Notes under the pieces: generated by a model
Told to the model about the DNA's origin: nothing
Seen by the model: only the letters and a program-made list of their open reading frames with translations
Databases searched by the model: none
In this document: piece after piece, positions 17,431-32,780 of the stretch
How positions within the stretch are numbered: the stretch's first letter is position 1
How the letters are laid out: each line of letters opens with the position of its first letter
Assembly (NCBI RefSeq): GCF_910592395.1
Contig: NC_088315.1
Span: forward strand, 15,171,808 to 15,235,807
Source: Lineus longissimus
Lineage: Eukaryota; Nemertea; Pilidiophora; Heteronemertea; Lineidae
Direction of reading: 5' to 3'
Length of the DNA: 64,000 nucleotides
Made by a program: the position numbers and the translations under genes

Positions 17431-17438
17431 CCAACAGT
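17431..17438. repeat. MULE target-site duplication (left), CCAACAGT
   Basis: The same 8 bases follow the element at 28,980-28,987. The unoccupied copy at 63,252-63,259 has them once. Confidence 0.85.
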
Positions 17439-17451
17439 GAGTGTTACTTTA

Positions 17452-17886
17452 GTGCGAGTTGCGAGTTGCGAGTTACAAAATGCGAGTTGCGAGTTACAAT
17501 GTGCGAGTTGCGAGTTAAAAAATGCGGGTTGCGAGTTACAAAATGCGAGTTGCGAGTTACAAAGTGCGAGTTGCGATTTACAAAGTGCGAGTTGCGAGTT
17601 ACAAAGTGCGAGTTGCGAGTTACAAAGTGCGAGTTGCGAGTTACAAAGTGCGAGTTGCGAGTTACAAAGTGCGAGTTGCGAGTTAAAAAATGCGAGTTGC
17701 GAGTTAAAAAATGCGAGTTGCGAGTTAAAAAATGCGAGTTGCGAGTTACAAAATGCGAGTTGCGAGTTACAAAGTGCGAGTTGCGAGTTAAAAAATGCGA
17801 GTTGCGAGTTAAAAAATGCGAGTTGCGAGTTAAAAAATGCGAGTTGCGAGTTACAAAATGCGAGTTGCGAGTTACAAAGTGCGATT
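17452..17886 (+). repeat. Left 21-bp tandem array (MULE terminal repeat)
   Basis: About 20 copies of a 21-base unit: TGCGAGTTGCGAGTTA plus a five-base spacer of three main types (CAAAG, CAAAA, AAAAA). Because 21 is a multiple of three and the unit has no stop in several frames, it creates long artificial ORFs on both strands. Confidence 0.95.
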
Positions 17887-18091
17887 GATGGTAGTGATTA
17901 AGCTTATTGAGCCCGTCAGTCTGCGGTGCCGCTCGCTGCTGTTCCCTTCCCCTCTGTAACTTCTGAACGACACAATATTTTGGGTTGAAATTTGGTCTGC
18001 TGATAGAGGGCGGGCCAAAGGTGTGTCGCGTCGAAAAATCGGCCGAGCTTGATTCTCGAGTTGGCCACCAGGGGGCCAAAACCAAAAACAC

Positions 18092-19465
18092 TTAAAGTGT
18101 TAGAACTCGCTTAATATTCGTCAGATCGTGTTTGATTCTCGACTTTAGAGGTCCAAATTCATAGACCCCCCGCAGTGCTTACATACTAAGTGGATGGCCC
18201 CATAGTCAGAACATGTCTGATTGTGACCATTTCGTGTTTGAACATCCCTATGCTGACACAGTTTCAAGGTAGACTGCCCAGAGAGGTTTCAAACTACACA
18301 TTTTTCAATAAACACCCCAACAGCGACGGGGGACATTCATTGCTATGCTTGTTGATTACTGAATGACGTTCTTCAGGGATCACTTTCCGTGTCCTCAGTG
18401 ATGGGGCGCTTGGAGAGGGAAGGGAGTACTTTTGCTATCGATTTAACTTCCCCAATGATAGGAAAGATCTCCTTTTTGGATAGATCTTTGAATATAATAA
18501 TATAAGTATCTCAGCTGAAAAAGGGACAATTTATTCAAGTGGGACCAGCAAATGGCAGGCTGCACATTGGTTTGTTTTGTCCACCAAAGATCACAGAGGA
18601 ACACCTTGCATGAAATTGAGCAAAAAACTTAAGAGTACAAATTCATATCAGTATAAATTTGATTTTTTTCTACAATGAATCGACATGGCAATAATGTTAC
18701 AACAGTAGATTAAGAGGGCTTGTCGACAATTATAGGCTTTATTGCAGAAGATCAATTTTTCAAACGAACAGTAATTTTGCATTTTATAATTGGTCCTTTA
18801 CAAAGTTAGGCCAAACCTTTTTATAAGTTCTGTACACATTTGCTGACAGGTCTGTAAGTAACAGAAAGGCTAGCAAGACGAGAAAAAAAGCAATAACAAT
18901 GATAATAAAACCCAGAACCCTATATGTGCCCAGTCCATCGCACCAGTATATCAGCAGGTATGATTGATCCAGTATTAAAGACCAATCAAACAATAAATCA
19001 ATAAAAATGATACTCTGGCACAAGGGGCGGTTCACAAGGTAGAAGTTTCATGAAATGGTACAATTATTATGATATATAATGTGAAATGCACAATCCAATG
19101 CACCAGACATTATGCCTGATCAATCTTAGAATAATCAGTATATAAATCAAGGAATAAAAGGACGGTCCGGTGCATCAAAATGAATGATGCACGAAAGGGA
19201 GGAGACACTCCTGCAGACGATTCTGGACTAACTCCCATATGTTGGGTTTATATTATATACCTTGCGGGTTGTCCACACCTGTTACCGTGTGCAATACAGC
19301 CCATGCTTCATATTAAGCAACAATCATATATATTTCAAAAAAATGTTCTGAAAACCTTGCATCAGCATTGGCAATATTGCTTACTGCAAACCTGAACCTA
19401 AACCTTTCAGCAAGCCAACGATTAATCCAAGTCATAAGATGACCAATGCAAAGAGGCATTCACAG
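18092..19465. other. MULE left internal region, mostly non-coding
   Basis: No supported gene. A minus-strand frame at 19,035-18,784 (83 codons) encodes a strongly hydrophobic C-terminal segment (about residues 40-62) and could be a small membrane-protein exon. Nothing else supports it. Confidence 0.35.
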
Positions 19466-19470
19466 AATGT

Positions 19471-20355
19471 AAAACCAGTCATTTTTCCCAAGTCGTTCGG
19501 GTGCTAGCCTTAAAGCTACTTGGCGGATTCGAACAAATTAAGTTTTTTATCAATGTGGAGAGAAGTGTTTGAAAATTAAAATTAGAAAAATACCAAACTT
19601 CGTAATAATCTGACCGGTATATTTCTAGTAGAGTATTTTAGTTTGTGTATCATCGAAAATGTAATTACTACTTACTTTGTTATAGATATAGGCCCCTATT
19701 GTTTAAATAACTTCGAAACTCCTTCTCGAAAGTTAAAGGGAAACTCCCTCTCGAAAGTTGAAGGAATAACAAAATTACTGTAAAACCAGTCTTGTCCAAG
19801 TCGTTCAGGGTGCCAGCCTCAAAGCTACTTGGCGGATTCCAACAAAGTAAGTTTTTATCAATGTAGAGAGACGTGTTTGAAAATTAAAATTAGAAAAATA
19901 CCAAACTTTGTAATGATTTGACTGGTAGAGTATTTTAGTTTGTGTATCATCGAAAAGATTTGTTATAGATATACGTTGTATTGTTCAAATAACTTCGAAA
20001 ATTCCTTCTCAAAAGTTGAAGGAAGCTCCCGCTCGAAAGTTGAAGGAGTAACAAAATTACTGTAAAACCAGTCATGTCCAAGTCGTTCAGGGTGCTAGCT
20101 TCAAAACTACTTGGCGGATTCGAACAAAGTAAGTTTTTTATCAATGTGGAGAGAAGTATTTGAAAATTAAAATTAGAAAAATACCAAACTTTGTAATTAT
20201 CTGACTAGTATATTTTTCTGGTAGAGTATTTTAGTGTGTGTATTATCGAAAATGAAGTTACTACTTCCTTTGTTATAGCAATGCTTATAGATATATTGTT
20301 CAAATTACTTCGTAACTCCCCGGGGAAACTTCTTCTCGAAAATTAAAGGAGTAAC
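19471..20355 (+). repeat. Three tandem copies of a repeat of about 290 bp
   Basis: Copies start at about 19,471, 19,782 and 20,064 with the shared phrase AAAACCAGTC. Each carries the same downstream blocks (CAAGTCGTTC, CTTGGCGGATTC, GAAAATTAAAATTAG). The spacing is about 311 and 282 bp, with small indels between copies. Confidence 0.9.
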
Positions 20356-21001
20356 AAAATCATTTTGCATCCTATAATGAAACAACATGCGGTCGACATA
20401 AAAAGTGAAATTACCTATTGTGTAATAAGTGACATGACATGCAAGTTATAATACAATTTAATTTAAAAAGTATGCTGTATGAGGATCGAACAAAACAAGT
20501 GTTCCTTCTCTTTTGCAGTATGGTAGAACCCACCGAATACTTTACTTATCCCAGATTCACCTTGAATCCAAGGAGGAGATCAGAACAGCAGATCCTGGAA
20601 ACTGTCCCTAGATCAGTAGATAATAGAAATACGGTACCCAAAAGTGGGTTATCAGGGCAGACATAAACTGTGTCATATAAAAACCATCTTTCTTTCCCCA
20701 GTTTTCAATCACCGTTGTCTATAATATGCACAAGAAATGTCCTAATTTTGTTTTTTTGATGGTGATTTCATCCCTATCTTGCTTTGGTATGAAATACATC
20801 AGACGAGTTGCATTCATGTTGAAGTTATGTTGAGTTATGCGCAACAAAATGATATACGTGCATGTATCAAAAGTTAGTAATGTGAAAATGAGCTAAGTGC
20901 ATCATATCGACAATAACCTAAATGTTATGCTAAATGCTATTTTGATGGCAGACCGTCACTGTTTTGTCTAAGGACAAACTGATCAATTATCCATGTGAAC
21001 A
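20356..21001. other. MULE 3' flank of the transposase gene
   Basis: AT-rich. An acceptor-like TTTTGCAG at about 20,518 precedes a short plus-strand frame, but I see no product to assign. Confidence 0.35.
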
Positions 21002-23090
21002 TTATATATTTATGCCAAAGTTTTTCAACACATTTTTGTTGCCCTCTGTTAAATGGTGTTTCACTTCATTGTGAATTATTATTTCATTCAGTTCTGCGTA
21101 CGGTTTTTCAATCCGCACACAATTCATATTGAGGTGGAAGTAGGCTGCAGATGACTTTGGGGCAACACATTCTTCACCACCACTTGCCACATATCTCCTC
21201 TTGAGGTGCGTTTTCAAAATGACATCATCTGGTTTCTTCTTGTACTTCATGGCAAATGTTTTCTTGCAACCATAGCATGAATTCAGGTTCGGAATGGGTG
21301 TTGAGAAGCATACCGAGAGAGGCTGGTCATAGCTTTTCTTCGCACATGTAGGAGGAGCACTTACTTTCCTTTTCTTTGCTTCAGGTGGCCGATGGCTTCC
21401 TTTCTTTGGGATGTAAATGGCCAACTCTCGACCATATTCTGCGACTCTTTTCTTGTCTTTTTGGAATCTTTCGGCATTCTTCTGGTTCACAGACCTTCCT
21501 CTTCCTCCCTTGTAGCCACCATCTTGAAAGCTGTTGATCTCTGCTTCCTGCCGAATGGCGTCAATGACGTCTTGCCGGGCGGCCTCTAAAAGGGACATCT
21601 TTGGTTTTGCACTACTCATCTTGGAGTGCCCAACCTCGGCCAGGTTGGACACAGGGGCGTCACTCTGTTTAAAGGCTCTGAATATGTGGCTTCGCCTCTG
21701 ATACCACCAGTTGTACCAACTCTTCAGATCGCTGTACTTCTCTTTGAATTGTTGCATCCTTTCACATGCGGAGTCGAACTCAGGAATGGTGTATGCAGTA
21801 AGCATAGCATGTGCCATATCAATGAACTGTGCACAATGCTCTGACGATACTTTCTTTGCATGTCGCTGCACGCTTTGTTTGAAATGAAACTCACAGGAGA
21901 CTGTCCTACGAATTGCATCTTGACCAAAAACATCGCTGATGCTCCTCCAATTTGCATGATTTTCATCCGCTACGAACCCAGATGGATTAAATTTTACACT
22001 CTTCCCAGCTGCCTCAGACAGCATCTGATTGAGGACTTGCCAGAACGTAGTCAGATTGGTGGTGTCTTCCTTCTCTGCATCTGAAACTGCCAGCCGCACA
22101 ACCCTCCTTAAGACCGGATGGTATACCCACAGCGTAATGGTGATATAACCTCGACAGTGATCATGTTTTCCATCAACATATGCGTACTCCTCTGCCAATA
22201 TTCCATCATTGTCCCTGTCCATAGAGAGACATAGTTCTGCCATCTGAGAACTTGACTTGAACACAAAGGAATGTTCACCATTTAAGGCTCTGTTGTTGAT
22301 CTTAAATATGAAAAAACGGTCTTTCTCGTCACATTTCTGTTTAAAGTCTGCAAGGGCTTCGAAATTCTCTCCATATGGGGAAAGAGTTTTCTTCAGTCGT
22401 TCTTTTGCGTTGTGCAGCCGCTTCATGTCCGTGTACTTATCAGCCACATCCTCCAAATCCTCCCATTTGAAAGCTTCTGATGATAATATCTGCATCATCT
22501 TCCCACTCACAATATTACTAGGCCTGATCCCTGGATTCTGCTGAATATCCAGCTTAAGCGATTCGACCGAAATTTTCGGCTTCTTTGCTGCGCATGTATG
22601 GTCGCCGATATGCATAACAACAACATGGTCTTTGAAGTATTCCCATACTTCGGTGGCGTTGCAGTCAATTTTATTCACTGGCATACTGCAAGTGCGACAC
22701 ACAAAAGTTCCATTTTCCTTTATAAATTGTCGTCTGTTTTGACATCCGTACATCTTAGTGTACATACAGTCGTTGTTCCTGCACACTGGGGAACCCCTGC
22801 AGTGTGCAATCCGCCGCGTCCCTTTGAATCCGACTCTTGAGCTTTTGCAGTATCGCTCCCATGGTCTCCCATCTCTTGCAACTTTCATCATGTCCTCCTT
22901 TTTTTCACAAGGGATTTGGTAAATTTGAAGACATTGAAGAATTTGATATCGAATGGTAGCCTGTCTACCTTCTTTGCTTGGCACTTAGCCCAGTGCTTTA
23001 CATCATACTTGGTGTTCTTGAATGTTTTCTTCTTTGAGGAGCTGACAAAGCAATCTGTAACCATACCATTTGACTGCACCAAAACCCCAT
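21002..23090 (-). CDS. MULE transposase (last exon of the kinase-protease-transposase gene)
   Basis: The 660-codon frame (22,984-21,002) shows a Cys/His zinc-binding N-terminus of the WRKY/GCM or FLYWCH type (about residues 46-75), then the MULE catalytic core. The core has D271 in A-Y-V-D-G-K, D340 in V-A-D-E-N-H-A-N-W, the C-x2-H signature at C364/H367, and E450 in N-L-A-E-V-G-H-S-K-M. A Lys-rich Cys-containing tail follows. The exon probably begins at 23,090 after TTTTTTTCAG. A second frame covers 23,085-22,905 and joins the catalytic frame only if one base changes in the T tract near 22,897-22,904. This is probably the enzyme that moves the element. Confidence 0.85.
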
Positions 23091-23591
23091 CTGAAAAAAA
23101 ATATGAAAGAAGCTATTTGATCATCAAACCCAAGTGTTTCATAAGCACTAATTAACCTTAGCAAATTCTGTGTTGCCTCATGTTGTTCCAGGAAAAAAAC
23201 ATGTCCCATGTCGTCGTTAGCGTTCTAGTTTGCTGGTGTCTTTTACAGGAGGACAACATCGTGTGCCAGGTCGCTGCGTTACCAAAAAATAAGCGGGCAA
23301 TCATGTCCAAGGTAGCTTCGGCCGAGCAATTTTGTTTCAGGTTGCCGGCACAAGGGTATATATTAACATTTCTTAAATTGATAGAGAGGTGGCATGATAA
23401 TGCCCTTCGGGACAGAGGGCAAATATCCAGGGGTATCAATTAAAATGTTAATTGTTAATGTTTATTTCTGTTGCCACCATCTGGCAGTCCCCAGAGCTTT
23501 TTATTTATCAAAATTTACTGGATGCAAAAGTTGAAATCTCCATCATTTTTTTAAATAACATGCACTGCCTGAGACATTCAAAATATAGTAC

Positions 23592-23690
23592 CTGAAAGTC
23601 CATTTTGAAGTCCATTTTCTAAACTTGATGACAGCTGGACATCCTGCTCGTCATGTTTTTGAATGCTCTCACCTCCCATAGAGTTGGACC
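23592..23690 (-). CDS. Short linker exon of the MULE gene
   Basis: 99 bases bounded by TTTACAG and TTTCAG/GTACTA. It is open in the frame that phase-matches the exons on both sides and is rich in Ser, Gly, Gln and Asp, so it is a likely disordered linker. Confidence 0.6.
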
Positions 23691-23694
23691 CTGT

Positions 23695-23915
23695 AAATAC
23701 AAAATTAGAGATAAAGCTCAAAATGATGTTGTATTTGGGGTAAGGGCATTCTCAGTGCATGCCCCTCGAATGTGGAACTCACTGAGCAACTATGACCTGA
23801 GGAAAGAAACTTCCGGAAGACACTTGAGAACTCTCCTCTCCAAGAACATTTTGAACATTGTTTTCGTTGGAAAGGCGATATATAAGCTGATTTCATTCAT
23901 TCATTCAATCATGGA
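23695..23915 (+). pseudogene. 3' end of a CR1/L2-like LINE, in an intron of the MULE gene
   Basis: A plus-strand frame carries the R-A-F-S-V-x-A-P-x-x-W-N-S-L motif near the C-terminus of many non-LTR reverse transcriptases. The piece ends in a short TTCA repeat at about 23,894-23,909, typical of CR1/L2 3' tails. Only the last about 220 bases remain. Confidence 0.7.
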
Positions 23916-24314
23916 TCTATAAACGCGTTATTCAATACATAATGCCTCTTGATGATGCTACTCAAGACACCTAATCGCGGCCTCATATCATTTCTCCTTT
24001 GGTCTGTATAAAAAGTGAGAAACAGCTGAGCTCGAAACGAACGACTGGTGACTTCTGGCAAAACGAAGTCAGTCCTCCTTTTTAAAAGGGGGATTGCATG
24101 GTCACAATGAACTGGCATTCAAGATCTCAAACTATGCACGTGGTCCATGGACCATCGGGATGGACTATAATTTCTCTGGGACATTGCATTGAGGGAAAAT
24201 ACCTGTATACACAAAGAAGCCAAAATGCATCTATAGTGCGCTACGATTGAACAAGATGACTCCAAACCTTGACGATAGGGAACCTAATATACAATAAGAA
24301 TAACATCATCTTAC

Positions 24315-24386
24315 CTGTATCATCACCACCACCACCACCACCAAGTGATCCCTCTTCTCTATCTTCGCTTTCTCTGTGACCAGTAA
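24315..24386 (-). CDS. Short Gly-rich linker exon of the MULE gene
   Basis: 72 bases between GCTTTCAG and ATACAG/GTAAGA. The phase-compatible frame encodes an acidic and Gly-rich linker. A CCA repeat on the plus strand corresponds to the Gly run. Confidence 0.6.
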
Positions 24387-24641
24387 CTGAAAGCAATGAT
24401 TACTGTTTTAGATTTTGCCTTTAAATTCAATATGAATTAAGTCATGCCAGTCGTAGCCTATACCCCCCCCCCCCTGCCCCGTTCCTTCGGGTCTGTATTG
24501 GAGGCTGTCACGTCAATCCCAAGTCTAGCACATCATTGTGTGACCAGTAGCTAACTAGCGGCATGTTATGTTACTGTAAGCATCCTACAGCTAGGCGATA
24601 GGACCCAGGTATTCAGTTATCAAATCACCTTAAATACTCAC

Positions 24642-25267
24642 CGTGTTCTGCCAAAATAACTGCGTCCACTTGAAACAAATCGATCTGCTGTCCATTATCA
24701 AGATCGTTTTGAGAGGTTCCGGACAAGCTTTCCTATTGATCCAAATACTGTAAGACATGCGCTACCGTCTGGGTCACATTGTCCATTTGCATCGCAGGCA
24801 TGGCTGTCAAAAACACACCATGTCCCATTCCGTCCTTGCAAGAGCGCATTAGATTTATCACCAACTCTCAGCACGTATGAGCAATCAGAAGTTGGCTGCA
24901 ATGAGTCATTTAGTATTTCATGCATATCAAATCCGAATTTTGCCCCAGTTAACACATCAATTTTTGCTTCAATGTGCTGTCCATCGACTATGCAAGACTG
25001 GTTGACAGGAATCTCATCTATATCTACTGTCATTACTGCCCTTAGTTCTGGCCATCCTAGTCCTCTCAGTGCTTTTTCATGTGCCTGGTTCCCCTGAATA
25101 AGTATTTCGTGAATTGTTGATTTAGTCCACTCATCGGGTGCTTCGAGAAGAGCAAACACTATCGCCATCACACACATGGAACTGCACTGTGAACCAGTAA
25201 ACTGGTCATAAGACATGTTATCAGAGGCCTGGTGAAAGTCTCCCATAACGACATATTCCCAATCGAC
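24642..25267 (-). CDS. C76-like cysteine protease exon of the MULE gene
   Basis: The exon starts after CTCTTTTCAG and ends at CACG/GTGAGT. It encodes a compact cysteine protease fold with G-S-Q-C-S-S-M (catalytic Cys, about 25,180), several strands, and F-D-S-H-A-C-D-A-N-G (catalytic His, about 24,795). This arrangement resembles the herpesvirus-tegument C76 deubiquitinase-like domains found in many invertebrate mobile elements. It may remove ubiquitin; that is inference from the fold. The protease frame stops at about 24,698. A one-base shift near 24,720-24,735 would continue into the splice donor and match the next exon. A break there is the simplest reading. Confidence 0.65.
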
Positions 25268-25652
25268 CTGAAAAGAGATAAAATTTAAAAGACTAATGAC
25301 AAAAAAGCGACTTAAAACCCTTTCGGTACGTGCGCTGCGGTGACCTGGTCATGAATTTGTAACCCGAATTTCTGTCATATATATAGCCCACCGGTGACGA
25401 AACGTGCTCCGCTATAAACGGACAACGGACGACGACGACGGACGCCACGTCATTGTATAAGCTCGCCTTGAGAGGTGAGCTAAGAACTAGACTATTTATC
25501 TGTTGACTGAGCTGTAGGCCAAGTAAGGGAGTTTAGGGCTAATATTTTTGTCAGAACTCCCAACAATTAACAAACTTTAGTCATTTCTCTCTTTGTAGGG
25601 CTGCCTCTAACGTTCTATCAACCCAAAAAAGCAAAAGAAATAATTTACTTAC
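25268..25652. other. Intron of the MULE gene
   Basis: Sits between the donor TTG/GTAAGT of the 25,653-25,710 exon and the acceptor CTCTTTTCAG of the protease exon, both on the minus strand. No coding content. Confidence 0.5.
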
Positions 25653-25710
25653 CAATGTCAAGTTATTGGCATTGTCAGAATTGGGTTCTGTTGGCACGAT
25701 AGAGGACTTT
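25653..25710 (-). CDS. Short exon between kinase and protease
   Basis: 58 bases between GCTTTCAG and TTG/GTAAGT. It joins the protease exon in phase (both borders at codon boundaries). It is out of phase by one base with the preceding 122-bp exon, the one unmatched junction in the gene. Confidence 0.5.
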
Positions 25711-26264
25711 CTGAAAGCATAACGGATCTTGGTTATGTTCATGAAATGTACAAGTAGCCATAGGAAATATGCATTGTTGTGATGGACTGCGTTTGGATTC
25801 GTGGGGGGGGGGGGGGGCGGGGGAAATATGTTAAATTCTGTAAAAATTAACATGTTTGTCTGTTGATCAATTAAGATGGCCACTTCGTCAGTTAATTTGG
25901 TACCGAAGAAGTTATTGTTTATATTCAATGGAAGACTCCCGATGTCGCTGGTAATGAACCAATTTACAACCAATAATAAATGGTAGCGGATGAATCTATT
26001 TTCTGATGGACGGGAATCTTCAAGTCGAACCCGGATAACACATCAATAAATATTTCACATGTAACATACGAATACATATTTATATGTTATCCGCTCTTCT
26101 TCATATCTATTTAATGAAAGATGTCACATCCTGGCAAACATGAAATAATGGAACTCATTTGACACAATGTTTGATGGCCATTTAAACTGCATTTCAAGGG
26201 TCCATTAAACTTTCTTTTGGGCTTCATCAGGGATTGAAATAGTTATATTAGTTTTATTAGTTAC

Positions 26265-26386
26265 CTATCATCCGCCCTGGTTGAGGTCTGTTTACATCAC
26301 AATGAGTCCCAGCTGTTTCTGACCTTCTTTCGAGGTAACTGGGCCCTGGTTGCTCAGCATGATGACTTCCTAAATTTCCTTGATGC
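26265..26386 (-). CDS. Exon after the kinase exon
   Basis: 122 bases between TATTTCAG and GATAG/GTAACT. Joined to the kinase exon at the donor AAG/GTAAGG (26,501), the frame stays open through the whole exon and encodes a polar, Gly/Pro/Arg-containing linker. Confidence 0.6.
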
Positions 26387-26500
26387 CTGAAATAGATATG
26401 TATGTGTCTTTATAATGTTATTCTCCATACTCAATGTCCAGTCGTACCACAAATTATATTGAATTTTACCCGAGATGTTTACGGGATGAAAATGCCTTAC

Positions 26501-27555
26501 CTTGTGTTCTGAACCATCTGAATTATATCCTGAACAAGCGGCCGTGCTGCTGGGCTTTGTAGTGTGCACATCCTGTATATTTTCCTTATACTGCTCCAGT
26601 CTGTATTTTGGAGGTTCGCATACTTCATCGATGGTGAGGGCCGTTGTCCTTTCTCAAGCTTATTTATGATGTGTTGCTTAAATTGCTCAGTTGGGTCAGC
26701 CCTAACATCTTTTGCTTTCGGCAAAGCCTCGAATTCTTCGCGAAACGGGAATGGGAGACCTGGGTTAAGAATGCCGAATATGGTCATGCCGAGTGCCCAA
26801 ATGTCGATTTTGAAGAGATCAGCCGATGTTGCAGATTTCAGCATTAGACTTGGCACTATTGCCTCTGGAGCAAGGTACGGATTCGTACCTCTTTCAACAG
26901 TGCGTGTGTTCGCATTTGCAAGTGTTCGAGTCTGAATTAAGTCTGACCGACTCTCTCCAAAATCGGTCAATTTGCATGTTATTGGTCGATCTTTAAAGAC
27001 ACGCGCGAACCCAGGGTCATCCGCTCGAACATGAGCATAGTTTTGGTTCGAAACTAGAATATTATGGGGCTTCAAATCCCGATGGGCCACTCCCTTTCCA
27101 TGGAGATAACCGAGGCCTTGCACAATGTCGTCCAAAGTATTGGGAAGGAATTCGAAGAAGAACGACGCGTCATCTAATTTGTTCAGAAAATTCAGATACT
27201 CTTTGAGGTTATAGAATTCCCTATCAATACCGAAAGGACGAAAACTGAAACATTCGAAGTCCAGCATTATGGAAGGCGGATCAAGGCACACTAATCTGAA
27301 ATTGGCAATGTGAGGACTACGAAGTCCATGAAGAAGTCGTGCCTCCTTTGCCATGTTCCGCATGGAATAATCATCCTCTTCATGTGATACTTTAACAGCC
27401 ACAGTTTCATTAGAATGACAACACTTCAAGACTTTCCCAAAGCCGCCACTGCCTATCTCCTCCTTTCCTTTGAGATCATGGTACCGAAAGCGTGGTATCC
27501 CAGCAAACAAAGGCTCGTGTTTATTTGATATCCCGATTGATGGAAGTTTGAACAT
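26501..27555 (-). CDS. Protein kinase exon carried by the MULE
   Basis: A complete eukaryotic protein kinase domain. Numbered from the GTG at 27,564 it shows G-S-G-G-F-G (38-43), V-A-V-K-V (Lys58), the helix-C Glu (about 74), H-R-D-L-K-P-H-N (161-168), D-F-G (201-203) and an A-P-E motif (about 240). All catalytic residues are present, so it could be active, probably on Ser/Thr. ATG at 27,555 is the better start. The exon ends at a donor (AAG/GTAAGG) and splices in phase to 26,386. No host kinase family is obvious. Its presence inside a MULE, upstream of protease and transposase exons on the same strand, is unusual. Confidence 0.8.
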
Positions 27556-27599
27556 TTTGTACACATAAAATGACAGGATTCAAAGCTGGAAACACCAAA

Positions 27600-28620
27600 C
27601 GCCAAATAAAACAACGTGAGAAGCCAGAAAGGATCATGGGTGCTATCCTGAAGCTTCAGCTGATGTATATCCAGTTGCAAAGATCATGGTCCTTGAAACA
27701 TGTGTCAGTGGTCCATCTCATCAACCTTATCACCAGCCACTTGGCGAGCCCTAATTTTTCTCAGCTGGGTGACTGTTTATGATTTGATACACAGTGTGCA
27801 TTTATAAGCTGGTGTATACAGTTTCAGTGATGTTGGTGAAGCTCCATGTCTTATAGACATCATACATGTTGACTGTTTCTGATTTTTGCAGGGTCTTGAG
27901 AATTTAAGTTGGAAAGTTTTAGCAAAATAACCAAAAACTGGAGGCTAGATTGTTCAGTCTAACTAATATAAGGGCAGCTAGCTGGACATCATTGACATTA
28001 GAAAGGAATATACCCGATAACTAGAATTAACCCATTACCGTTATTAGTTGGCCTTGGCCTTTGACTTTGCTATCACAATATGCCTCTATATAGGCCTAGT
28101 GCCTTGTCAAAGTGAGATTACGGACGGGTCTGTCAGTCATATCAGTCATGTCAGTTGATCATTGACAACCACATTTTATATTGTTATAAAAAGAAACCTG
28201 TTTTGTAAATGTATGATTGTTTTGTTACTAAAAGTAGGCCCATTAATTAAAAATTGGAGCCCTGTGGGCTAAGGCCCATTACGAGCAAATTTGACCCTAG
28301 TAATCTGCAGCAATGAAAACTCATTCGATATACGCCTATACCATGCCCATGGACCTTTATAGTATAAAGGTCCATGGCCTAACAGTTCAAAGGTCCATGG
28401 CCTAACAGTTCATTGATAGCGTTGATTGGGTTAATTTAAAAATGGACCAACATCCTGTAGTACACAGTGATGTTTACTATTGTTTGTGCAGGACTGATAC
28501 TAAGTAATGCCACATGTGATGTAAAAGGATTCTTGAACTTTCACCACAGGAGGTCAACCCAGAGCCATAACTGATAAAGACATCCATACTTGATTATGTT
28601 CAGGAGGCGGAACCTGGAGT
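27600..28620. other. MULE right internal region (promoter side of the gene)
   Basis: No supported coding sequence. It holds a short local duplication of GGTCCATGGCCTAACAGTTCA at about 28,370-28,412. The promoter of the minus-strand gene should lie here, but I see no clear TATA box. Confidence 0.4.
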
Positions 28621-28624
28621 TGCT

Positions 28625-28965
28625 TTGTAACTCGCAACTCGCACTTTGTAACTCGCAACTCGCACTTTGTAACTCGCAACTCGCATTTTTTAACTCGCAA
28701 CTCGCACTTTGTAACTCGCAACTCGCATTTTTTAACTCGCAACTCGCACTTTATAACTCGCAACTCGCATTTTTTAACTCGCAACTCGCACTTTGTAACT
28801 CGCAACTCGCATTTTGTAACTCGCAACTCGCACTTTGTAACTCGCAACTCGCATTTTTTAACTCGCAACTCGCACTTTGTAACTCGCAACTCGCATTTTT
28901 TAACTCGCAACTCGCACTTTGTAACTCGCAACTCGCACTTTGTAACTCGCAACTCGCAACTCGCA
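28625..28965 (-). repeat. Right 21-bp tandem array (MULE terminal repeat, inverted)
   Basis: About 16 copies of the same 21-bp unit as 17,452-17,886 but in reverse orientation. The outermost units share the extra half-unit (three TGCGAGT steps in a row) with the left array. The order of spacer variants differs between arrays, so only the outer end is a strict inverted repeat. Confidence 0.95.
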
Positions 28966-28979
28966 TAAAAGAAACCCTC

Positions 28980-28987
28980 CCAACAGT
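28980..28987. repeat. MULE target-site duplication (right), CCAACAGT
   Basis: Identical to 17,431-17,438. Confidence 0.85.
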
Positions 28988-29247: not shown

Positions 29248-32200
29248 TTAACGAATGTCGCAAACATAGCAGTTGCGAATTTGGCACTTTTTATCATAGG
29301 AACCCAAAATTTCATTTTTGTAGTATGTTGAAAAGGATTTTAAGCTAAAATTTGAGTGGAGTTTGTTTAGAGTTTGTTTTGAGAGAGAATTATATAATTT
29401 AGTTAAACTGTATCGTGGTGTCATTTTGGCATATTCTTGTCTTACATTTGGTATTTTAAATTTATCATTAATTCTTGTGGGATAGTTATGAACATCACTG
29501 TTAAATGAGAAAAAATTGTGCATGAAGTACACTGGTAAATCCTTTTTTAAAAATCTATAGAGAAATTTTATTTCAATTAATTTGTGTAAGTCCGGTAGTT
29601 TGAGTAGTTTCAGCTTTATGAATAAAGGGTCAGTGTGACTAATAGGATGACTGAGAGTAATGGCACGAATAGCTTTCTTTTGTAATTTTAAAATTTCGTT
29701 GTGATCATAGCCCCAAGATAATATTTGATAGTTGAGATGAGCAGAGATAAGAGAGTGGTAAATCGTTATTAGAATTTTCTGTGGAATGAAATGTTTTAAG
29801 TAATTGATAATGCCGGTTGCCCTTGATATTTTTTTTGAAATATGATTTATATGTGAAGTCCAAGTAAGATCCTTATTTATAAGTAATCCAAGGAAGTTAA
29901 ACGATTCAACACATTCGAGTTTCGTGCCTTCAATTTGTAAATCTAGGATGCCATTACAAATTTTGTGTGTTCGTTCAAAGATCATAAATTTAGTTTTTGA
30001 GATATTTAAAGATAATTTATTTGCTTTTAACCAGTTTGCTATGTTTAATAGCTCGGTGTTTAATATGTGGTTTACCTTAGTAGAGAAAGAATGTAATTCG
30101 CTAAGTGAAGTTGTATCGTCCGCAAACATTATAAAATTGAAGAATTTACTTGCTTTGTTTAGATCATTGATGTAAATGGTAAAAAGGAGAGGCCCTAAGA
30201 TCGACCCTTGGGGTACACCCGTTTTAATGACAGCATGGTCGGAGGTGTAACCAGAGAAATCAACATATTGACGTCTGTTGGATATATAAGTTTTCATGAG
30301 ATTTAGAGCAGAGTCAGTAAGACCGTAAAGGCTAAGTTTATGTAATAAGATATTATGATCCAATGTATCGAAAGCCTTGGACAGATCCATAAATATGGCA
30401 ATTGATTTCTTGTTGTTATCGAAGGTTTTAGTTATTCTATCAATTAACTCTGCTGCGGCGAGGTCTGATGAGTATTTTTTTCGGAAACCATATTGACTTT
30501 CAAAGATTATTTTGTTGTCGACGAGATATTTAGTGAGTTGATCATGTATGATTCTTTCATAGATTTTTGAGATTGATGGAAGAAGGGATATTGGCCGGTA
30601 GTTGTTAAATGAATCTTTTTCCCCTTTTTTAAATAACGGAATAACTTTTGCTATTTTAAGATTGTCTGGGAAAATGCCTGATTCAAGAGAGCGGTTTACT
30701 AAAGCTGAGACAATGTCAAGAATTTCAAATTTGCACATTTTTAAGAGTTTAGTGGATATACCATCCCAGCCACTGCTAGGTTTCGGATTTAGATTGTCAA
30801 TTACTTTAGCAATATCCATTCGGTTTATTTTCGTAAATTGAAAGGTCTTATCTCTTTGATTATCAAGGTAATGTTTGAAATCAGTGGTGATAGGCTTTAT
30901 GTTTTTTGAAAGTTTAGGACCGATATTTACAAAGAAGTCATTAAAACCATTGGCTATAACTGTTTTATCGGTTGTTTGTACATTATTTACACTGAACGAA
31001 CTTGGTATTTGTTCACCCTTATTGTTTGATTTTTTCTTTATGATCGAGTTTATATTTGACCAGGTTTTTCTGCTGTCATTCGCACATTTGTTGAATTGCT
31101 CAGTGTAGTATGACCTTTTTGCTCCATGAATGAGTCGTCTTAGAATCTTATTATAATTTCTGAGTTGATTATGTCTTGTTTCATAGAGTTGACAGTTTCT
31201 TGGAGTTCCTTTAAGTTTTTTGTAGAGTTTGTCCCTTTTCGTAATTGATTTGACAAGAGCGCTTGTAATCCAGGGTTCCTTTTTATGTCTATGTTTATCA
31301 AACTTAACAGATATCAGTGGAAAGTGTTTCTCTTTGCACTTGGTAATTATGGTATGAAATTTATTGAAGCTATCATTTATGCTCAGCGTTGACCAAGTTG
31401 GATCATGATGGAGATTTGCTAGGGTTACACTTAGAGTTCTTTTAAAATTCATAATATTTTCAGTGTTGAATTTTCTGAATTGAATGTGTTTAGGATTGTT
31501 AGTTTCATTGCAAATCTTCCGGTCATCTTTTATTTCCAGGAAGTAAGGTTGATGGTCTGAAAAACGATGGTTTAATATACCAGTTGATAGTGTTGTGAAT
31601 GTCTTTGAGAATCGACATAGGAAGTTGTCAATGAGAGTTGCACTATGTGGGGTTATTCGCGTCGGTCGGGTTATTGTTGGATAGATTGATAGTGTGAATA
31701 AGTTGTCGATGTAATCATTGATCGCCTTTTTTTCTTTGATTTTCAATAGATCAATGTTATAATCTCCTGCTAAATAGCATTCGCTATTCATGTTTTTGAA
31801 ATTTACCATCAGCTCGCTGAATTCATTTATAAATTGAAAATAGTTTTCGTTTTTGTGCTGTGGCAACCTGTAGATGTTTCCTAGGATTATTCTACTTTGG
31901 TTAGTTGACTTCCCTTTGATTTCAATAAATATATTTTCCCATGAGGTATGAGTTGGTAAGTTTGAAAGTATATTAAAATCATAGCCCTCTTTGATATAAA
32001 TTGTAAGGCCTCCATGAGCGGAGCAGGTTATTTGTTGGTGGACAGCAGTATAACCAGGGATTTTATAAAGGGAATCAGCAAGGGATTTGTTTTTGATCCA
32101 GGTTTCTTGGAGGCAGATAGCGGTGTATTCAAAATTTTCCTTTTTTAAGCGTTCCAAATATAGTAGAATTTCATTAAATTTTGCGTTAAGACTTTGACAG

Positions 32201-32343
32201 TTCATGCTCAAGAATACAAGACTTTTTTGGGTATTAATTTTTAGAAGGTCATCATCTGAGATATAAGGGGAGTCTTTTAGATTTATTAAAGGTTCCTGTG
32301 TGTTGTCTTCTGGGTCTATAAGAAAGTCAAGGAGAGATGTCAT
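29248..32343 (-). CDS. LINE ORF2: endonuclease and reverse transcriptase
   Basis: An intact frame of 1,031 codons. The apurinic-like endonuclease domain shows Asn48 in M-N-C-Q-S, Glu80 in Q-E-T-W, D194/N196 in G-D-Y-N, and S-D-H at 262-264. The reverse transcriptase has F-M-D-L-S-K-A-F-D (Asp653), P-Q-G-S (711-714) and A-D-D (741-743). A C-terminal region with Cys residues ends the protein (C-x5-C-x2-C). The domain order and tail fit the CR1/L2/Jockey group; the exact clade is not decidable here. No stop or frameshift is present, so this copy is recent and may be active if an ORF1 is not needed. Confidence 0.92.
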   Translation of the reverse strand: MTSLLDFLIDPEDNTQEPLINLKDSPYISDDDLLKINTQKSLVFLSMNCQSLNAKFNEILLYLERLKKENFEYTAICLQETWIKNKSLADSLYKIPGYTAVHQQITCSAHGGLTIYIKEGYDFNILSNLPTHTSWENIFIEIKGKSTNQSRIILGNIYRLPQHKNENYFQFINEFSELMVNFKNMNSECYLAGDYNIDLLKIKEKKAINDYIDNLFTLSIYPTITRPTRITPHSATLIDNFLCRFSKTFTTLSTGILNHRFSDHQPYFLEIKDDRKICNETNNPKHIQFRKFNTENIMNFKRTLSVTLANLHHDPTWSTLSINDSFNKFHTIITKCKEKHFPLISVKFDKHRHKKEPWITSALVKSITKRDKLYKKLKGTPRNCQLYETRHNQLRNYNKILRRLIHGAKRSYYTEQFNKCANDSRKTWSNINSIIKKKSNNKGEQIPSSFSVNNVQTTDKTVIANGFNDFFVNIGPKLSKNIKPITTDFKHYLDNQRDKTFQFTKINRMDIAKVIDNLNPKPSSGWDGISTKLLKMCKFEILDIVSALVNRSLESGIFPDNLKIAKVIPLFKKGEKDSFNNYRPISLLPSISKIYERIIHDQLTKYLVDNKIIFESQYGFRKKYSSDLAAAELIDRITKTFDNNKKSIAIFMDLSKAFDTLDHNILLHKLSLYGLTDSALNLMKTYISNRRQYVDFSGYTSDHAVIKTGVPQGSILGPLLFTIYINDLNKASKFFNFIMFADDTTSLSELHSFSTKVNHILNTELLNIANWLKANKLSLNISKTKFMIFERTHKICNGILDLQIEGTKLECVESFNFLGLLINKDLTWTSHINHISKKISRATGIINYLKHFIPQKILITIYHSLISAHLNYQILSWGYDHNEILKLQKKAIRAITLSHPISHTDPLFIKLKLLKLPDLHKLIEIKFLYRFLKKDLPVYFMHNFFSFNSDVHNYPTRINDKFKIPNVRQEYAKMTPRYSLTKLYNSLSKQTLNKLHSNFSLKSFSTYYKNEILGSYDKKCQIRNCYVCDIR

Positions 32344-32780
32344 TAAGAGAGAACAAGTAGGTGTGGAGTGAACTGCCTAGAAAAGAAACAATGTATACGA
32401 TTGTGTCAGTCATAAAATGACATAGTGGAGATGAAATAACAATATGTAAATTTATCCTGTACATGTATATGGGCAAAGGAAACAGAATTAAAAGTGCTGA
32501 AAGGTTGGTTAACAATTGTGGAAAATAATGACGTGATAAATATTTACAGTTAAGATTTAAGTGATAGATAAACATCAGTTGCTCGAAGAAGATGAGCCAG
32601 AAAAGGTATATCAAACTCATTGCGATTTGGTGAGATGAGGCTAGTAAGCAATATGGCAATAAAATAAAAGTTCTGTACCTGTCACGTATTACGATCAAAA
32701 GCGTAAAGTCCGAATTATCTAGGTTCATATTTTTTAGAGTCCAATCTAAGAGAGCGAGTAGCTGAGTACAAGTATCATGA

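Follow-up and report, generated by a model that had tools for sequence, protein, structure and literature searches.

A Mutator-like transposon of Lineus longissimus whose gene is predicted to join a protein kinase, a deubiquitinase and a DDE transposase

A 64,000-nucleotide stretch of contig NC_088315.1 of the nemertean Lineus longissimus (hereafter the window, to which all coordinates without a contig prefix refer) contains an 11.5-kb Mutator-like DNA transposon at 17439-28979, bounded by inverted arrays of 21-bp units and by a target-site duplication. Its gene is probably spliced from seven exons into a single protein, expected to have 1,371 residues, in which a predicted protein kinase is followed by a predicted viral-tegument-like (VTD) deubiquitinase and a predicted DDE transposase. 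Prefixes such as C1 or C6 denote other contigs of the same genome, which comprises 391 Mb in 30 contigs and has the size given for the published genome in the accessible part of PMC8593623.

The gene and its predicted product

An initial annotation, made from the window alone, had drawn one minus-strand gene of seven exons with GT/AG borders, and all of these borders are present in the sequence. Exon 1 (26501-27555) encodes the protein kinase; exons 2 (26265-26386) and 3 (25653-25710) encode linkers; exon 4 (24642-25267) encodes the VTD/tegument-like cysteine protease; exon 5 (24315-24386) encodes a linker rich in glycine and acidic residues and exon 6 (23592-23690) a further one, the linkers appearing by eye to be serine-rich; and exon 7 (21002-23090) encodes the DDE transposase with its Cys/His-rich flanks. 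As that annotation had also claimed, one of the six junctions is out of phase in the window copy, with breaks in exons 4 and 7; we find one short frame lesion in each of exons 2, 4 and 7. Because the exons had been drawn from the window alone, its sister copies on C6 and C13, which are about 99% identical, provide an independent test of the gene model. Neither sister copy has the lesions of the window, and in both of them the same seven exons are in phase at six of six junctions. Moreover, the C6 copy forms the single open reading frame that the annotation had proposed looking for in intact paralogues, with 1,371 residues in the order kinase, tegument-like cysteine protease, DDE transposase. 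The C13 copy lacks the last 33 or so codons, its match to the window ending at 21102. The phases of the sister copies and the single frame on C6 thus support one spliced gene joining the three enzymes, and the lesions are peculiar to the window copy.

Exon 1 matches Pfam PF00069 (Pkinase) with E 1.4e-34 and 120 bits, against a cut-off of 31.7, and has the hallmarks of eukaryotic protein kinases on the minus strand: the lysine K55 (27393-27391), the HRD aspartate D160 (27078-27076) and the DFG aspartate D198 (26964-26962). These catalytic residues do not vary among 25 aligned proteins, and among 97 kinase search matches that we scanned, some of them partial, RD[LI]K is present in 94 and DFGE in 92. 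Relatives that carry names come from a sea cucumber, a mussel, krill, a hydrozoan and corals. Some members of the kinase family stand under the names of host genes in public annotation (P0129 as ULK1-like in Lineus and P0140 as STY46 in a sea cucumber), so that transposon genes may have been counted among the annotated kinases of some animals.

The product of exon 4 is predicted to be a deubiquitinase of the VTD kind. The exon itself matches Herpes_teg_N (PF04843) with E 4.2e-4 and 20.4 bits, below the cut-off of 25; the same family is matched in all eight protease sequences of the genome, which form only about three distinct groups (best E 3.1e-4). A profile of the protease matches PDB 8ADD, a Helitron deubiquitinase solved by crystallography, with E 2.2e-4 over positions 8-197, and the catalytic cysteine C28 (25186-25184, minus strand) and the Asp-x-His motif D154-S-H156 (24808-24806 and 24802-24800, minus strand) align to those of 8ADD, as is expected of a VTD/C76 protease. 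A structure model from the single sequence had a mean predicted local distance difference test score (pLDDT) of 37.6, too poor for a fold search. Protease relatives of 23-28% identity occur elsewhere in the genome in long open frames (e.g., C9:5314287, C13:10190254 and C14:14599797), several of 2,000-3,000 residues, and these may be Helitron proteins with VTD domains.

In the transposase, with residues numbered from window position 22882, the acidic triad consists of D237 (22174-22172), D306 (21967-21965) and E416 (21637-21635), all on the minus strand. Taken alone, the open part of exon 7 gives no good match in Pfam and none to the family of Mutator-like elements (MULEs); among 14 aligned proteins, two match Pfam MULE PF10551 weakly (E 0.032 and 0.15, below the cut-off of 27.6 bits), and the window protein does not. 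The best fold match of the transposase structure model is ISCth4, an IS256-type transposase, about 4 Z units above the best rows of Hermes and RAG1, so that the model points to a DDE core of the IS256/MULE type. The entries listed in this comparison, which cover mainly model residues 176-456, include no other of the IS256 type and no protease fold, and this excludes nothing.

Extent, ends and copies of the element

Beyond what the annotation had described, the entire stretch from 21002 to 27555 sits inside a mobile element. The 11,541 bp from 17439 to 28979 have been copied as a unit to C6:11374800-11386529, with 98.8% identity to the window across 11.5 kb, and C13 holds most of the element too; all seven exons lie within it and have been copied along with the rest. 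The window copy is flanked by an 8-bp target-site duplication (CCAACAGT, at 17431-17438 and 28980-28987). In the C6 copy the duplication is a perfect 9 bp, in a C8 element of a second family (described below) one of its 9 bp is mismatched, and in the C13 copy it is imperfect; a length of 8 or 9 bp falls within the 8-11 bp of MULEs.

The left terminal repeat (17439-17884, plus strand) consists of a tip and a tandem array of 21-bp units (GCGAGTTGCGAG...), and the right one (28624-28979, minus strand) of the inverted 21-bp array and a tip. The two tips bear related motifs, GAGTGTTACTTT... and, inverted, GAGGGTTTCTTT..., next to which the inverted arrays begin; such inverted terminal repeats of short tandem units, 21 bp in the window and 20 bp in family 2, are a trait of the foldback type. 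With up to three mismatches allowed, the end motif occurs at 59 sites in the genome (29 forward and 30 reverse), and a control motif, read backwards, at none. Several inverted pairs of the motif lie merely 1 to 3.3 kb or so apart. Elements at C7:12885008-12887891, C10:12782404-12785596 and C20:5379377-5382671 have the same ends and match only residues 1-78 of the kinase, at 84-85% identity; these short elements are likely to be non-autonomous derivatives.

Direct repeats of about 300 bp lie at 19468-20360, in the element downstream of the transposase, and occur also in two C6 copies. An intron of the gene appears by eye to contain, at 23632-23950, the 3' fragment of a long interspersed nuclear element (LINE), and another LINE-like open frame, of more than 1,000 residues (29248-32376, minus strand; RVT_1, E 1.2e-32), lies about 270 bp past the right end of the transposon.

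Related proteins and alternative explanations

Relatives of the fusion occur both among database proteins and at other loci of the genome. When residues 412-1371 of the C6 protein were used as the query, nine proteins were matched, of which P0001, P0002, P0003 and P0007 also begin with a kinase. A profile of these four matched 577 proteins, and among the best 120 of the 577 were four new kinase-transposase proteins, P0010-P0013; from E 6.6e-15 onward the matches in that set span at most about a quarter of the query, and the named ones are ordinary kinases. Eight of the thirteen predicted proteins P0001-P0013 thus hold a kinase and a transposase in one chain, a lower bound for such fusions since the profile search scored only the 7,990 candidates sharing most words with the query, and its own members P0003 and P0007 were not among the matches listed. 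A protease with Cys and D-x-H lies between kinase and transposase in five of the eight (P0001, P0002, P0010, P0012 and P0013). P0012 and P0013 have a second type of transposase, 17-18% identical to that of the window as against 44-52% for the other eleven, and P0013 has a SWIM zinc finger. In viral contigs, the fusion profile gave no confirmed relative and the protease none.

The same order recurs within the genome. Kinase, protease and a transposase of the window type lie on one strand at C8:13.57 Mb, C15:9.33 Mb and C20:6.43 Mb (family 2) and at C6:8.974 Mb (family 3). The C8 element (C8:13570089-13589614) is 19.5 kb long, some 4.7 kb of it being a stretch absent from its relatives, and has its own ends and duplications; its protease and transposase exons have the same borders and phases as those of the window. 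The second type of transposase follows a kinase and a protease of the window type at C1:14.196-14.206 Mb, C14:10.299-10.289 Mb and C1:11.209-11.198 Mb, and a kinase and a protease of a second type (B) at C3:10.328-10.320 Mb. Type B also has Cys and D-x-H; a profile-profile comparison of the two protease types gave a probability of 3.3% and E 0.013, which does not establish kinship, and type B matches PF04843 in one of 11 sequences (E 0.18) and no solved structure below E 5.6. Taking genome loci and database fusions together, all four pairings of protease type with transposase type occur. Next to the kinases at C11, C8:15.83 Mb and C13:8.16 Mb, no transposase was found among the 29 of 109 candidates scored, which is not evidence of absence. 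In the family 3 locus, at C6:8981171-8986796, two transposase pieces that are about 99% identical stand in tandem.

A single fused protein is not the only product that such a gene could have. The element might instead specify at least two products: a kinase-protease along with an independent transposase, or else a kinase by itself. These would arise from distinct transcripts or through alternative splicing, and the domains would cooperate in trans. We regard this as unlikely, and several observations nevertheless speak for it. In family 1, to which the window copy belongs, the stop codon of the kinase frame sits at the donor site of exon 1, so that an unspliced message would give a complete kinase alone. 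At least 21 of the 97 kinase relatives scanned (18 by strict motifs, 21 by looser ones) are kinase-protease proteins of 552-605 residues that end after the protease, in a search that admits lengths only to about 616 residues; and at C3:10.32 Mb kinase and protease share one frame of 625 residues, with the transposase about 5 kb further. Other findings weigh likewise against a fused protein or its generality. No annotated fused protein of L. longissimus was among the nine matches to the C6 protein; P0003 and P0011 have no protease between kinase and transposase, the protease of P0007 has no catalytic motifs, P0009 has no kinase, and the first copy of the C6 cluster gave no kinase match. In family 2 the join between kinase and protease was not reconstructed, a tblastn search with linker exons 2 and 3 of family 1 gave chance-level matches alone, and the C8 transposase is broken by stops and a frame shift; at each of the four loci of the second transposase type, the matched stretch is interrupted by one to three stop codons. 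The distances of kinases and transposases across eight sequences are uncorrelated (r 0.13, p 0.32), giving no support to parallel descent, and with three silent and four replacing changes between the kinases of the C6 and C13 copies, selection on the kinase cannot be demonstrated from these two. Against separate proteins, however, stand the agreement of the phases from kinase to transposase at every junction of two sister copies, the recurrence of kinase and transposase in one chain in proteins elsewhere, and family 2, in which the kinase frame passes the donor without a stop and the phases of the protease and transposase exons are kept.

The remaining alternatives concern the origin of the parts. 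MULEs are known to take up other sequences as Pack-MULEs (PMC8277862, in its accessible part), and host genes for a kinase and a protease might have been captured by chance in one element without serving it; this is very hard to reconcile with a kinase that comes first in several divergent families, before two types of protease and two of transposase, that is fused in at least eight database proteins, and whose catalytic residues are invariant, replacing changes being held back. Seven exons are more than expected for a transposase gene, as would suit a domesticated host gene amid the remains of a transposon; we give this almost no credence, as near-identical copies with the same ends and target duplications lie on other chromosomes and three exons of the window copy carry breaks. 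A Helitron or Helentron was rejected: the three coding parts scanned contain no Rep or helicase family, and the ends are inverted and flanked by target duplications. That the transposase belongs to a DDE superfamily other than Mutator/IS256 is also quite improbable, the ISCth4 match ranking as it does and the 8-9-bp duplications and long terminal repeats agreeing with those of MULEs (PMC6446971, as far as its text was available).

A gene for one kinase-deubiquitinase-transposase protein is hence the reading that we prefer. We also lean, with less assurance, toward the view that the element belongs to an ancient lineage of Mutator-like transposons, armed with a kinase and spread across animals, in which one kinase has kept its place in front while two types of protease and two of transposase were swapped behind it, phosphorylation and deubiquitination being built into the transposition complex.

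Possible mechanism and known systems

The transposase would bind the terminal 21-bp arrays and mobilize the element in cut-and-paste fashion; the other two enzymes, sharing its chain, would enter the transposition complex with it. A likely job of the protease would be to strip ubiquitin off the transposase or its partners, sparing the complex from destruction before strand transfer; protection of this kind has been suggested for Helitron VTDs in the available portion of PMC9741609. The kinase would likely phosphorylate the transposase itself, or nearby host proteins of repair or chromatin, and so set the timing of transposition. The least certain step is that all domains need to act in one chain, because kinase-protease proteins ending after the protease are common elsewhere. 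With three of its exons broken, the window copy would now be mobile only with protein from another copy.

Why transposons keep a fused deubiquitinase or SUMO protease is an open question in PMC2836005 and PMC9741609, as far as these were accessible, and the kinase adds to the protease a second signalling enzyme in the chain. If the fusion works, this would be a DNA transposon that supplies phosphorylation and ubiquitin editing of its own where it transposes, and that edits host signals to aid its own movement. The four domain combinations form a natural series in which one could ask what part the element cannot do without.

Fused proteases are already in print: the accessible parts of PMC2836005 and PMC9741609 describe Ulp1 in MULEs, OTU or Ulp1 in Ginger1, and VTD or OTU in Helitrons. 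In literature on kinases and transposases, covered mostly as titles and the starts of abstracts and with few subscription journals or preprints, we found no transposon-encoded kinase; the word kinase is absent from the main text of a review of giant transposons (PMC6431247), and in the available portions of PMC2836005, PMC3558436 and PMC4528696 kinase and transposase are mentioned in unrelated contexts or kinase is absent.

Among known systems, Mutator-like elements such as Phantom and other animal clades likewise have an IS256-like DDE core, 8-11-bp target duplications and long terminal repeats, but the terms kinase, protease and peptidase do not occur in the main text of a MULE survey (PMC6446971), and the element of the window differs in having both a kinase and a protease. 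The Tm1 Mutator/Foldback elements of root-knot nematodes resemble it in their composite ends of short tandem units, mostly 9-bp duplications and Mutator-type transposase (PMC3169594, in part); their repeat unit is about 14 bp as against 21 bp here, and the main text of that paper contains none of the three terms. Helitrons (Helentrons) with VTD deubiquitinases, to which 8ADD belongs, have a related protease with Cys and D-x-H (PMC9741609, in part), but are rolling-circle RepHel elements unlike that of the window, and the main text of that paper mentions neither kinase nor Mutator nor MULE. Elements of the MULE and Ginger1 groups that carry Ulp1 or OTU likewise fuse the transposase to a cysteine protease of the ubiquitin/SUMO type (PMC2836005, in part), in contrast to the tegument-like protease here, and have no kinase, a term that does not occur in that paper. 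Transposases with fused proteases are thus known already, and it is the kinase within a transposon-encoded transposase-protease chain that, as far as we have seen, is new.

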